Source: Gallionella sp. (GTDB lineage Bacteria > Pseudomonadota > Gammaproteobacteria > Burkholderiales > Gallionellaceae). From it: DNA of 41,623 nt. Below the pieces are notes generated by a model. It was not told the origin of the DNA. It saw nothing but the letters and a program-made list of their open reading frames with translations, and ran no database searches. The stretch is taken from contig JAJDNO010000030.1 of the NCBI GenBank assembly GCA_022340615.1, positions 1 to 41,623 of the forward strand, written 5' to 3'. Shown here one piece after another: positions 16,250 through 30,056 of this stretch. Within the stretch, counting starts at the first letter, position 1. The number at the start of each line of letters is the position of its first letter. The translations under genes were made by a program, and so were the position numbers.

Positions 16250-16561
16250 ATGAGCTATTTCGACAAGCATGTCTTTTTCTGCACCAACCAGCGCGCCGGC
16301 GGCGAAGACTGCTGCAACAACCACGGCGCGCAGAAAGCTCGCGACTACGTGAAGGACAGAGTCAAGGCGCTCGGCATCTCCGGCAGCCTGAACAGGATAC
16401 GCATCAATTCCGCAGGCTGTCTGGATCGCTGCGAAGAAGGCCCGGTGATCGTGGTTTACCCCGAGGGCACCTGGTATACCTATGTTGATGAAAACGATCT
16501 GGACGAAATCATCGAAGAGCACCTGAAGAACGGGCGCATCGTGGACCGGCTAAAGATCTAG
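16250..16561 (+). CDS. Thioredoxin-fold [2Fe-2S] ferredoxin-like protein
   Basis: A 103-residue protein of the thioredoxin-like [2Fe-2S] ferredoxin family. Likely cluster ligands are Cys11 (FFCTNQR), Cys21 or Cys22 (GEDCCNNHG), Cys57 and Cys61 (NSAGCLDRCEEGPVIVVYPEG), which is the usual spacing. It ends in an acidic helix. Such small proteins are thought to carry electrons, but partners are rarely known. It is probably monocistronic: a -10 box lies upstream and an inverted repeat downstream. Confidence 0.88.
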   Translation: MSYFDKHVFFCTNQRAGGEDCCNNHGAQKARDYVKDRVKALGISGSLNRIRINSAGCLDRCEEGPVIVVYPEGTWYTYVDENDLDEIIEEHLKNGRIVDRLKI

Positions 16562-16576
16562 TTTCATTAATTACGG

Positions 16577-16616
16577 CCGCAGGCCGGCTGCGTACCAGCG
16601 CGAAGGCAGCCTGCGG
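16577..16616 (+). terminator. Inverted repeat after the ferredoxin-like gene
   Basis: CCGCAGGC (16577-16584) pairs perfectly with GCCTGCGG (16609-16616); inside it GCTG/CAGC (16587-16590 and 16596-16599) can form a smaller stem. It lies 15 bases after the stop and has no T-run behind it, so it may be a terminator or an mRNA 3'-end structure. Confidence 0.35.
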
Positions 16617-16642
16617 ACATTTCAGGACATAAATTTCGAAAA

Positions 16643-18373
16643 ATGATCAGCCATCTCGGTCGATATGAAGTTAATGAAGAACTGGGGCGGGGCGCAATGG
16701 GCATTGTCTACAAAGCCTATGACCCGCTGATCGAGCGATTCGTCGCAATCAAGACCATCAATCTCCAGACTCTGTCCAAAACGGAAAGGGACGAATACGC
16801 TGCCAGGTTCTATCAGGAAGCCAAGGCGGCGGGACACCTGAGCCATCCAAACATCGTCACCATCTATGACCTGGGGGAAAGCGGCGACGTGGCCTACATC
16901 GCAATGGAACTGATGGAGGGCCGCGAGTTGCAGGAGATGATTTACGGCAAAGGGCGCCTGCTGGTTACCGATGCGCTGAACATTGCAATCCAGGTCGCCG
17001 CAGGATTGTCCTATGCACACCAGCGCGGGGTCGTGCACGGCGATATCAAACCTTCAAACATCATGGTACTGGGCGACAATCTGGTCAAAATCGCCGACTT
17101 TGGCATCGCGAGACTGACTTCCTCCCATGTGAATTCTTCCACTGAAAGCGGGCAGGAAGAGGCGGTTTATGGAACCCCGCCATTCATGTCGCCCGAACAG
17201 ATTCAGGGCAAATCGATTGATGCCCGATCGGACATTTTTTCGCTCGGGGTCGTTCTGTATTACATGCTGACCGACCGGCTGCCCTTTCCCGAGGAAGACA
17301 TCGGTTTGCTCAGGCACCAGATTGCCGGTACTGAACCGGAAAGGCCCAGTTCAATCAATCCCGGGATCCCGGAAGCTCTGGATGCCGTCATTTACAAGTG
17401 CCTGGCAAAATCACCCGATGCCCGCTACAAGAACGCCAATGACGTGGCAAACGATTTGCGTTCATGCCTTTCTGCAATGCTGCATGCCGGTACCGGAACG
17501 GACCTGCCTTTCTCGTCGAACGTCAAATTCAAACGCCTGAAAAATCTGGTCGCACCGCGGCGATTTTCACGCAAGTTCGTCGCGAACGGCAGCTATATTG
17601 CAATGGTTGCACTGGTTGCGATTGCAATCATCGACTTCGTCACGCCGCCCGCGATCCAGATGCACCTGCTCTATATATTCCCGCTGATCATGATCAGTCT
17701 GCATTGCGAGCGCATCAAGCTGATCAGCGGGGCAGTCGTATTGGCCCTGTTTCTCCAGGGCTTCAATCTGGTGCATGATGCGGTTCCGGCATCCTCAAAG
17801 ATTTTTCTCGCCATCATGGTACTGCTGTCCGATATCACCATCGTTTTTCTGTCCAGGATCGCGCGGATCAACTTTATCGAGGTCGAGCAGCTTTCATCCT
17901 TCGACAGCCTGTCCGGGCTGCGCAACCGGCTAAGCTTCGAGGTCATCGCGGACATCGAAATCGACCGTCAGCGGCACAGAAAAGCTGCATTTTCAATTGC
18001 CTATGCCGACATCAACAGGCTCAAGGAGTTGAACGAAACCAGGGGATACGCCGCCGGGGACAGGGCGATCAAGCTGGTCGCCCGTGTGCTTCGGGATAAC
18101 ATACGGCAGCTGGACACGCCCGCGCGGATAGGCGGAGACGAATTCGCGATCCTGATGCCGAATACCAATGCGGCCGATTGCGAGTCGATCTGCAGGCAAC
18201 TGTCCCTGAAGATTGCACAGCAGATGGAAGACGCAGCACTCCCGTTGTCGACCAGCATCGGCTTTGCGACCTTTGAAAAGCCGCCCGCATCGATATCGGA
18301 AGTTTTCGACAGGTCCGAAAATGCGATGCACAGGGCCAAGGCAACCGGCAAACCATTTGCGGTAAGCGCCTAG
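16643..18373 (+). CDS. Ser/Thr protein kinase - four-TM - GGDEF fusion
   Basis: A 576-residue protein with an unusual order. Residues 8-275 are a Hanks-type Ser/Thr kinase: glycine loop GRGAMG (15-20), VAIK Lys37, Glu59 in the C-helix, HGDIKPSN (132-139, a non-RD loop with catalytic Asp134), DFG (152-154) and SPE (183-185). Four hydrophobic segments follow at about 317-333, 337-353, 358-375 and 386-404. Residues 418-576 are a GGDEF domain starting DSLSGLRNR, with Asp456, Asn464 and Asp473, an intact GGDEF (497-501) and an I-site RQLD (488-491) five residues before it. Both catalytic domains therefore look active and cytoplasmic. Inference: kinase state and cyclic-di-GMP synthesis may be linked. 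No cognate phosphatase or EAL protein is adjacent. Confidence 0.92.
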   Translation: MISHLGRYEVNEELGRGAMGIVYKAYDPLIERFVAIKTINLQTLSKTERDEYAARFYQEAKAAGHLSHPNIVTIYDLGESGDVAYIAMELMEGRELQEMIYGKGRLLVTDALNIAIQVAAGLSYAHQRGVVHGDIKPSNIMVLGDNLVKIADFGIARLTSSHVNSSTESGQEEAVYGTPPFMSPEQIQGKSIDARSDIFSLGVVLYYMLTDRLPFPEEDIGLLRHQIAGTEPERPSSINPGIPEALDAVIYKCLAKSPDARYKNANDVANDLRSCLSAMLHAGTGTDLPFSSNVKFKRLKNLVAPRRFSRKFVANGSYIAMVALVAIAIIDFVTPPAIQMHLLYIFPLIMISLHCERIKLISGAVVLALFLQGFNLVHDAVPASSKIFLAIMVLLSDITIVFLSRIARINFIEVEQLSSFDSLSGLRNRLSFEVIADIEIDRQRHRKAAFSIAYADINRLKELNETRGYAAGDRAIKLVARVLRDNIRQLDTPARIGGDEFAILMPNTNAADCESICRQLSLKIAQQMEDAALPLSTSIGFATFEKPPASISEVFDRSENAMHRAKATGKPFAVSA

Positions 18374-18485
18374 CGTATTCGCCGAAGCGAGATAAAAAAC
18401 ATGGAAGCAGTACTGACAGATAATGTTTCGACAAAACCCTTCAACTTTTGCGCCGTTACGCCGCATTTCGGATATACATAGATAA

Positions 18486-19130
18486 ATGCCCGCCCTGAAA
18501 AAATTTTCCGTCGCCGGCCCGGCCGGCAAACTCGAAGGTGTTGCGCACCTCCCCGACGGGGAGCCGCGCGCGATCGCGGTGGTCGCGCACCCGCTTCCAA
18601 CCATGGGCGGCACAATGGACAACAAGGTGGTCACGACGCTGGCGAAAACATTTGTCGAACTCGGATTCATTGCGCTGCGCTTCAACTTTCGCGGCGTGGG
18701 CACCAGTGACGGAAATTTCGACAGCGGAAACGGCGAGGTCGAGGACGTGCTGGCAGTCGTGCGCGATGCGCAACGGGTATATGGTGATCTGCCACTGATC
18801 CTGTCCGGCTTCTCGTTCGGCGGCTATGTGCAGGCGCGCGCCGCGCAGCATCTGCACCCGCATCCGCACCGGCTGGTGCTGATCGCGCCTGCGGTGGGTC
18901 GCTCCGTTCCTTCGTTTGAGAATAGTACAGGCATGCCACCTGTGCGGCACGACACGCTGCTGGTACATGGCGAACTCGATGAAGTCGTCGCGCTGGCCGA
19001 CGTGCTGCACTGGGCGCGTCCGCTGCACCTTCCTATCGTGGTATTGCCGGAGGCGGGACATTTTTTCCACGGTCGGCTGAACCAGCTCAAACAGATCGTG
19101 CTGCGCGCCTTCAACGGACAGCCCGTATGA
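18486..19130 (+). CDS. Alpha/beta hydrolase
   Basis: A 214-residue serine hydrolase-fold protein. The likely triad is Ser110 in the nucleophile elbow SGFSFGG, Asp165 in VHGELDEVV and His192 in PEAGHFFHG. The N-terminal [18 protein letters not shown] and [13 protein letters not shown] are typical of a group of small hydrolases close to dienelactone-hydrolase and peptidase S15-like proteins. No signal peptide is seen. Its stop overlaps the ABC ATPase start (ATGA, 19127-19130), making it the first gene of a coupled four-gene unit. Only a weak TATACA lies just upstream and no Shine-Dalgarno. The substrate is unknown. Confidence 0.85.
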
Positions 19131-29225: not shown

Positions 29226-30056
29226 ATGCCCTGTAGTCCGGATGTCCTCCAGGATGCCTCTCTGTTCTCCCTGCTCGACAAGGAGGAACTGGCTGTTCTC
29301 GCCAGCCAGGTCGAACTGCGCCGGTTTGCGCCGCGCCAGCGCATCTACAAGATAGGCGACCCGAGCAACCGCGCCTATATCCTGATGTCCGGTTCGGTCC
29401 AGGTCTCGACCATCGATGAGGATAACCAGATCGTGCTGCTGGACGAACCGATCAAGGGCGACATGTTCGGTTTTGCGTCGATGCTGGCCCAGACACCCCA
29501 CCAGACCGAAGCAACGGCGGTGCAGGAGTCCCAGTGCATCGAACTGGATCTCAATGACATCGCCGTGCTGCTGCGCAACAAGCCTGACGCCGGCCTGGAT
29601 ATCATGAAAGTCATGGGCAAGCAGTTTCATGCCGCCGAGAAGCTGGTCCGGTTGCGCTCCGCGCGCAACCCGAACGAGGTATTTGAAGAATCCCAGACGC
29701 TGGGAGAACGGGTTGCCGATGTCGTTGCGTCATTCGGCGGTTCCTGGAACTTCATCATCATTTTCGGTTTTGTGCTGCTTACGTATGCGCTGATCAACAT
29801 CGAACTGAAGGGCGATGCATGGGATCCCTATCCGTTCATTCTGCTCAATCTGTTTCTGTCGATGCTGGCGGCAATACAGGCCCCCATCATCATGATGAGC
29901 CAGAACCGCCAGGACAAGAAAGACCGGCTCCGGAACGAACTCGATTTCGATGTGAACCGGCGTGCACATACTGAAATCCAGGGTCTGGCCCGGAGAATCA
30001 ACCTGCTCTACGACAAGATCGAGGATCTGGAAGAGACATTGCGCGAGAAAACGTGA
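29226..30056 (+). CDS. Cyclic-nucleotide-binding-like domain + DUF1003 membrane protein
   Basis: A 276-residue two-domain protein. Residues about 13-125 form a CRP/cNMP-binding-type beta-roll (LFSLLDKEELAVLASQVE, YILMSGSVQV). The phosphate-binding cassette reads MFGFASMLAQTPHQTEATA, lacking the FGE Glu and the Arg of the usual RTA, so canonical cAMP binding is doubtful. Residues about 157-270 are DUF1003: two membrane helices (174-190, 204-222) around DAWDPYPFILLNL, then IIMMSQNRQDKKDR and a cytoplasmic coiled-coil-like tail. GGAAGGAG lies 10-17 bases before the ATG. Function unknown; sensing of another ligand is an inference. Confidence 0.87.
   Translation: MPCSPDVLQDASLFSLLDKEELAVLASQVELRRFAPRQRIYKIGDPSNRAYILMSGSVQVSTIDEDNQIVLLDEPIKGDMFGFASMLAQTPHQTEATAVQESQCIELDLNDIAVLLRNKPDAGLDIMKVMGKQFHAAEKLVRLRSARNPNEVFEESQTLGERVADVVASFGGSWNFIIIFGFVLLTYALINIELKGDAWDPYPFILLNLFLSMLAAIQAPIIMMSQNRQDKKDRLRNELDFDVNRRAHTEIQGLARRINLLYDKIEDLEETLREKT

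Follow-up and report, generated by a model that had tools for sequence, protein, structure and literature searches.

Ser/Thr kinases and cyclic-di-GMP enzymes are usually separate proteins, and their mutual regulation is hard to study in that state. The question raised by the locus described here is whether these two signalling systems are wired together in one membrane protein, and in which direction control would run. The gene is located in a 41,623-nt stretch of Gallionella sp. DNA (GenBank assembly GCA_022340615.1, contig JAJDNO010000030.1), hereafter the window; the genome (G000) has a length of 2.27 Mb and is estimated to be 99.5% complete. The terms fusion gene and fusion protein refer to positions 16643-18373 of the forward strand of the window, and residue numbers are those of the 576-aa product. 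The frame is uninterrupted, with an ATG at 16643 and a stop codon at 18371-18373, and has the following parts:

16643..18373, + strand: whole gene, Ser/Thr kinase, four-helix membrane part and GGDEF domain; 576 aa, stop codon included
16664..17431, + strand: Hanks-type kinase domain, residues 8-263 (Pfam Pkinase, 7.4e-55)
within 16664..17431, + strand: kinase motifs K37, E59, HGD 132-134 (non-RD) and DFG 152-154
17105..17197, + strand: activation segment, residues 155-185, after DFG 152-154 to PE 184-185
17459..17569, + strand: variable linker, about residues 273-309, the least conserved part of the protein
17570..17887, + strand: four predicted membrane helices (hydropathy; AlphaFold2, low confidence; homology to the stand-alone protein L178)
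17897..18352, + strand: GGDEF domain, residues 419-570 (Pfam GGDEF, 1.1e-30)
within 17897..18352, + strand: GGDEF residues kept, D456, K461, N464, D473, GGDEF 497-501 and K566
18104..18115, + strand: RxxD site of the product-inhibition type, residues 488-491 (R and D kept in all nine fusions)

An earlier note on this DNA had described one open frame joining a kinase to a GGDEF domain, and both domains indeed score far above the curated Pfam cut-offs: 186.6 bits against 31.7 for Pkinase, as in Hanks-type Ser/Thr kinases, and 107 bits against 23.8 for GGDEF, as in GGDEF diguanylate cyclases. The positions given there for K37, E59, D134, DFG 152-154, RxxD 488-491 and GGDEF 497-501 are all correct in the sequence, and the GGDEF variants N458 and Y469 are present in the alignment. 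The NCBIfam results are consistent with those of Pfam, with a GGDEF domain model above its cut-off; no equivalog cut-off was reached among the best 25 of 45 families. The kinase shares its fold and catalytic residues with PknB/Stk1-type kinases. Its nearest solved structure is M. tuberculosis PknB (E about 2e-54 by sequence, TMt 0.92 by fold), and the fold search with the structure model revealed only kinases among the best 50 rows. However, the score with the NCBIfam Stk1/PASTA model falls short of its cut-off (309.7 of 450 bits), PASTA repeats have no match in the fusion protein (Pfam, E <= 1), and HGD stands in place of HRD. The GGDEF domain matches 30 solved sequences at E <= 1e-12, cyclases including PleD among them.

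Four hydrophobic stretches lie between the two domains according to hydropathy. Their N-terminal side is rich in Lys and Arg (seven K/R and no D/E at 296-316), and the presumed outside loops 334-340 and 375-385 contain no K/R. This charge distribution places both the kinase and the GGDEF domain inside the cell, so that the predicted topology, a four-helix membrane part with two cytoplasmic enzyme domains, agrees with the one proposed earlier. AlphaFold2 puts helices at 310-333, 339-354, 359-378 and 383-415 with low confidence (block means 33-63), and the last of them extends, at the same low confidence, toward the GGDEF domain; the linker has low predicted order. The structure model built from seven fusions has a mean pLDDT of 51.3. 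With 15 further kinase rows the mean pLDDT is 72.1 and the pTM 0.51, a value at which the arrangement of the two domains in the model is unusable; activation-segment residues 155-174 have a pLDDT below 50. MASE-type modules also comprise a multi-helix membrane part ahead of a GGDEF domain, and the fusion resembles them in this respect. It differs from them in that a scan of the membrane part alone (window 17540-17896) gave no Pfam match, MASE families included, at E <= 10; in such a scan HMMER filters remove most matches above about 0.1. Of the domains named in the earlier note, Pkinase and GGDEF were recovered by Pfam and a MASE module was not. A comparison of the membrane part with the cyclases L008/L009 of the same genome using hhalign gave no match, with an alignment of two rows only. 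The membrane part might act as a sensor.

Full-length homologues, the window copy included, were detected in 9 of the 158 family genomes and 5 of the 76 genus genomes, which makes the architecture rare in the genomes sampled. The eight further fusions are 48-80% identical to the window protein, and by genus label the nine are distributed as five in g1, two in g12, one in g6 and one in g13. They are well separated by score: the fusions reach at least 989 bits, and the next match, a kinase-only protein, 500 bits. The match in G081 is likewise kinase-only and is excluded from the nine. Eight fusions start with ATG, and the G119 copy, as cut here, with TTG. Among 399 genomes sampled from the order, only the fusion gene itself reached E <= 1e-110. 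In 398 genomes sampled from the phylum, 63 had a match at E <= 1e-85, and besides the fusion gene no match listed extends past profile position 336 of 569; the searches at family, order and phylum level are blind to kinase and GGDEF proteins of unrelated make-up. Matches were found in 4,117 of 72,556 plasmid records, none of which had a place covering 80% of the fusion protein.

The combination of the two domains is nevertheless not new. Clostridium thermocellum, which belongs to another phylum than Gallionella, encodes a protein of this kind. It is a 1826-aa chain with a kinase, six TPRs and a GGDEF domain, for which a link of the kinase to cyclic-di-GMP production was proposed in the relevant passage of a 2005 survey (Krupa and Srinivasan 2005, PMC1262709); the novelty implied by the earlier note was thus too high. 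As described in that passage, the protein is similar to the fusion in having an N-terminal Ser/Thr kinase and a C-terminal GGDEF domain in one chain, but it is about three times longer, contains TPRs and is set apart by a description that mentions no membrane part. TPRs were not found in the fusion protein (Pfam, E <= 1), which distinguishes it from the C. thermocellum type. A 2005 census names, in the places concerned, histidine-kinase hybrids with a Ser/Thr kinase and with GGDEF, and a Ser/Thr kinase with GGDEF is absent from the best 12 of 24 places in it (PMC1183210). The terms "protein kinase", "STPK" and "eukaryotic-like" are absent from the available text of a review from 2022 on the sensory inputs of cyclic-di-GMP signalling (PMC8846402), as is "threonine" from the available main text of a Gallionellaceae pangenome paper (PMC10734462). 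Beyond the 2005 survey, no study of a kinase and GGDEF protein was found in the literature searched, whose coverage lies outside most subscription journals. For the specific form described here, the earlier reservation that the architecture might be common and already characterised applies in neither part to the genomes sampled and the literature searched, although a kinase and GGDEF protein of different build has been on record since 2005. Within that literature, novelty seems to lie in the form with a membrane cyclase, in its parents and in the HRD Arg having been lost repeatedly.

Both parents can be recognised in the same bacterial family. L178, a 314-aa frame in genome G119, is a stand-alone protein of four helices and a GGDEF domain with 40% identity over fusion residues 319-575, helices included; L175 and L176 are more distant (30-32%). 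In all three, the four-helix part and the GGDEF domain are homologous to those of the fusion end to end, but unlike the fusion they have no kinase, and L178 retains (by eye) the usual His at the H340 position, which the fusions do not. Kinase-only proteins match the N-terminal half at identities of up to 63%. The 337-aa L078 shows 62-63% identity to the fusion kinase, and the range for L078/L056, L057, L058 and L002 is 58-63%; these relatives have HRD and, by eye, a C-terminal hydrophobic stretch, and no GGDEF domain. Since both halves are homologous to separate proteins, the most plausible reading is that a PknB-like kinase gene was grafted onto a whole diguanylate cyclase gene, one encoding four helices and a GGDEF domain.

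On the kinase tree of 61 rows, from which 11 of the 72 unique kinases were dropped as distant or long-branched, the nine fusions form one branch (87/79; 85% of 200 bootstrap trees). On the tree of 58 rows (14 of 72 dropped), the fusion needs two changes, one change being sufficient in 14% of bootstrap trees, and the AU test does not reject a single fusion clade (p 0.44). The 72 do not include the 132-residue partial kinase of L065. The common membrane and GGDEF half argues for one origin of the fusion, although the kinase tree alone does not settle this.

In the window, a ferredoxin-like gene (16250-16561) precedes the fusion gene and a hydrolase gene (18486-19130) follows it, with a gap of 1924 nt between these two neighbours (16562-18485). 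In 21 of 28 Gallionella loci this spacing is only 2-59 nt, and in the other seven it is 187-1355 nt with differing content; the 28 are those of the best 30 loci in which both neighbours were found, and the hydrolase is present in 57 of 76 genomes. The GC content of the fusion gene is 0.55, compared with 0.56-0.63 for 12 window genes. The variable junction and the lower GC content make it probable that the gene arrived by insertion at a variable site. The neighbourhoods yielded no lead to an operon partner. When the ORFs of the nine loci, which differ in length (4.7-18 kb), were compared, no gene proved common to all of them, and Pfam analysis of ten neighbour proteins indicated no common theme. 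Shared neighbours were found between the near-identical pair G037/G001, and a VanZ/ferredoxin/hydrolase group is common to the window and L054. L050 and L055 both have a radical-SAM gene 2-4 kb downstream of the fusion (71% over 405 aa), L053 and L054 each contain an S4-domain gene (44%), and the window is connected with L055 by a match between ABC ATPases (33%). Elsewhere in the window, the gene at 29226-30053 encodes a cyclic-nucleotide-binding domain and DUF1003.

The catalytic Lys, Glu, Asp and DFG of Hanks-type kinases are present in all nine fusions in the alignment. The conserved Arg of HRD is absent in six of them, replaced by HGD in the five Gallionella copies and HHD in G120, and is present in all 63 non-fusion kinases examined. 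These six copies are not independent, as five form one close group, and on the kinase tree the loss corresponds to two changes. The designation "non-RD kinase", given earlier, is thus correct for the window protein but is not a fixed trait, the remaining three homologues having an ordinary HRD. The activation loop differs as well. Of the 49 kinase-only rows from the family, 42 have a TQ[TS]G motif in this segment; among the fusions, the RD copy G121 alone has it, and it is missing in the RD fusions G089 and G119 and in all six non-RD fusions. None of the 14 rows that belong to other families contains it. Other Ser/Thr residues are still present in the fusion loop. Some non-RD kinases are not governed by activation-loop autophosphorylation, as stated in a passage of PMC5682000. 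The loss of the HRD Arg only in fused kinases, among those examined, suggests that the control of the kinase was altered once it was fused.

For the GGDEF domain, we take the PleD numbering of D327, K332, N335, D344, GG[DE]EF, K442, H340 and R446 to apply to the fusions. The window protein has the metal- and GTP-binding residues of a GGDEF diguanylate cyclase. Among the nine fusions, the metal Asp D327 is kept in eight, K332 (461) in seven, the guanine-site Asn N335 in nine, the guanine-site Asp D344 in eight, GGDEF in eight, K442 (566) in seven and RxxD in nine. RxxD is likewise kept in all 15 controls (one from L057, one from L065 and 13 of the 22 other GGDEF matches in genome G000) and is therefore no distinguishing mark of the fusion. 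The core of metal Asp, guanine-site Asn and Asp and GGDEF is intact in the window and damaged in two of nine fusions: G120 has lost the metal Asp (D456G), and G119 has DGDEF together with D473N. G121 lacks both Lys 461 and Lys 566, G120 the former and G089 the latter; all six features (D456, K461, N464, D473, GGDEF and K566) are kept only in the five Gallionella copies. With the metal Asp missing in G120 and two changes in G119, the cyclase may be weak or dead in genus g12.

Two variants of the domain had been pointed out earlier. The change at the H340 position (Y469 in the window) is common to all nine fusions, with His in 15/15 controls. In turn, N458 at the second Asp position is no signature, since Asp occurs there in five fusions, Asn in two and His in two. 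The R446 position is not Arg in any of the nine (Lys in five, window included), and Arg is found in 9 of 15 controls; as the stand-alone L178 also has Lys there, this position was dropped as a sign of a dying cyclase.

Across ten pairs of the five Gallionella copies, dN/dS is 0.090-0.144 in the kinase and 0.113-0.281 in GGDEF; the membrane part spans 0.069-0.438 and the linker (residues 273-312) 0.253-0.822. The low values of the kinase and GGDEF indicate that selection keeps both domains, and free decay of either half is not the pattern, although selection on a folded but inactive domain would be compatible with the same values.

Quite possibly, although we hold this tentatively, the fusion is a membrane-anchored bifunctional protein in which a kinase of unusual regulation sets the output of the cyclase. 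Two copies would be held together by the four-helix part and the outgoing helix, as a GGDEF domain requires for making cyclic-di-GMP. The kinase, on the cytoplasmic N-terminal side and lacking the HRD Arg and the usual loop motif, would not be switched by the usual activation-loop phosphorylation. It might phosphorylate its own linker or GGDEF domain, or a partner, and thereby set or modulate the cyclase, and cyclic-di-GMP bound at RxxD would limit the cyclase. We infer the enzyme activity of both domains, dimerisation and the kinase-to-cyclase direction from these features, and the coupling of Ser/Thr phosphorylation to cyclic-di-GMP output, as put forward in the earlier note, would follow the same reasoning. 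In its favour are the catalytic residues present in the window protein, the purifying selection on both domains, the two recognisable parents, and the loss of the HRD Arg and of the TQTG-type motif in most fusions. Against it speak the damaged GGDEF residues outside the five Gallionella copies, the replaced His at the H340 position, the equal conservation of RxxD in the controls, the missing TQTG-type motif in the RD fusions G089 and G119, the close kinship of five of the six non-RD copies, the lack of a neighbour gene shared by all loci and the missing PilZ match in genome G000.

A less likely explanation, but one to be taken seriously, is that the kinase and the cyclase are two independent outputs which share a membrane anchor and expression level and do not regulate each other. 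The linker is what could be expected of a mere tether, being the fastest-evolving part (dN/dS 0.25-0.82) and of low predicted order, and each half exists alone in the same family. However, the fused state has been maintained at 48-80% identity in nine genomes with four genus labels, and among the kinases examined the HRD Arg was lost in fused ones alone (6/9 against 0/63), both of which count against this explanation.

The opposite direction appears rather unlikely: GTP or cyclic-di-GMP at the GGDEF domain, in its active site or at RxxD, would alter dimerisation and gate the kinase, which would then be the real output. Since the catalytic residues of GGDEF are damaged in some fusions, cyclase output may be dispensable, above all in genus g12, and this fits the reverse direction better than control of the cyclase by the kinase. 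The kinase residues are kept in 9/9, the GGDEF core is damaged in 2/9 (G119 and G120) with RxxD retained in both, and 3/9 (G121, G089 and G120) lack at least one nucleotide-site Lys. The kinase is also the more conserved half in comparison with the window (84% against 79% in G012, 54% against 48% in G119). Nevertheless, the metal Asp, the guanine-site Asn and Asp and GGDEF are intact in 7/9 fusions including the window, selection on the GGDEF part is strong beyond the needs of a receptor alone, and the RxxD offered as the receptor site is a general property of the GGDEF controls examined.

We also give a low probability to a single-chain switch with mutual control in cis between Ser/Thr phosphorylation and cyclic-di-GMP. 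The membrane cyclase would be driven by a kinase free of activation-loop control, and cyclic-di-GMP at the GGDEF domain would act back on that kinase; the cyclase of genus g12 would have decayed to a receptor, giving a cyclic-di-GMP-gated Ser/Thr kinase. Finally, the artefact considered in the earlier note, a sequencing or assembly error near 17530-17600 joining two genes, is rejected as practically inconceivable, since the same full-length frame without a stop is present in eight other genomes and purifying selection spans both domains.

Control of the cyclase by the kinase, like its alternatives, is open to direct testing of its direction, because the fusion is compact (576 aa) and conserved and both of its stand-alone parents exist in one family. 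In the same bacterial family, RD and non-RD versions and those with intact and damaged GGDEF domains coexist.

Several other signalling genes can be noted. In genome G120, L065:3806-5929 encodes HAMP, PAS and a GGDEF domain with a degenerate motif, followed in this reversed order by a kinase of the same family that ends at the contig end. It could be a real reversed fusion or a chimeric contig; among the matches listed (58 of 158 family genomes, E <= 1e-120), no other extends past query residue 600 of 708, and L065 is therefore given no weight as support for the fusion. Besides the fusion, genome G000 contains 22 GGDEF-region matches, and a PilZ receptor has no match in it (E <= 0.001; 99.5% complete by estimate). 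Two PP2C matches are located elsewhere in this genome, one of which adjoins another kinase (L004/L104, contig C36) with a long N-terminal part, membrane- or sensor-like by eye. L006 and L007 (contigs C13 and C18), two further Ser/Thr kinases of genome G000, have a C-terminal cNMP_binding domain (Pfam, 3.7e-15 and 2.7e-16).
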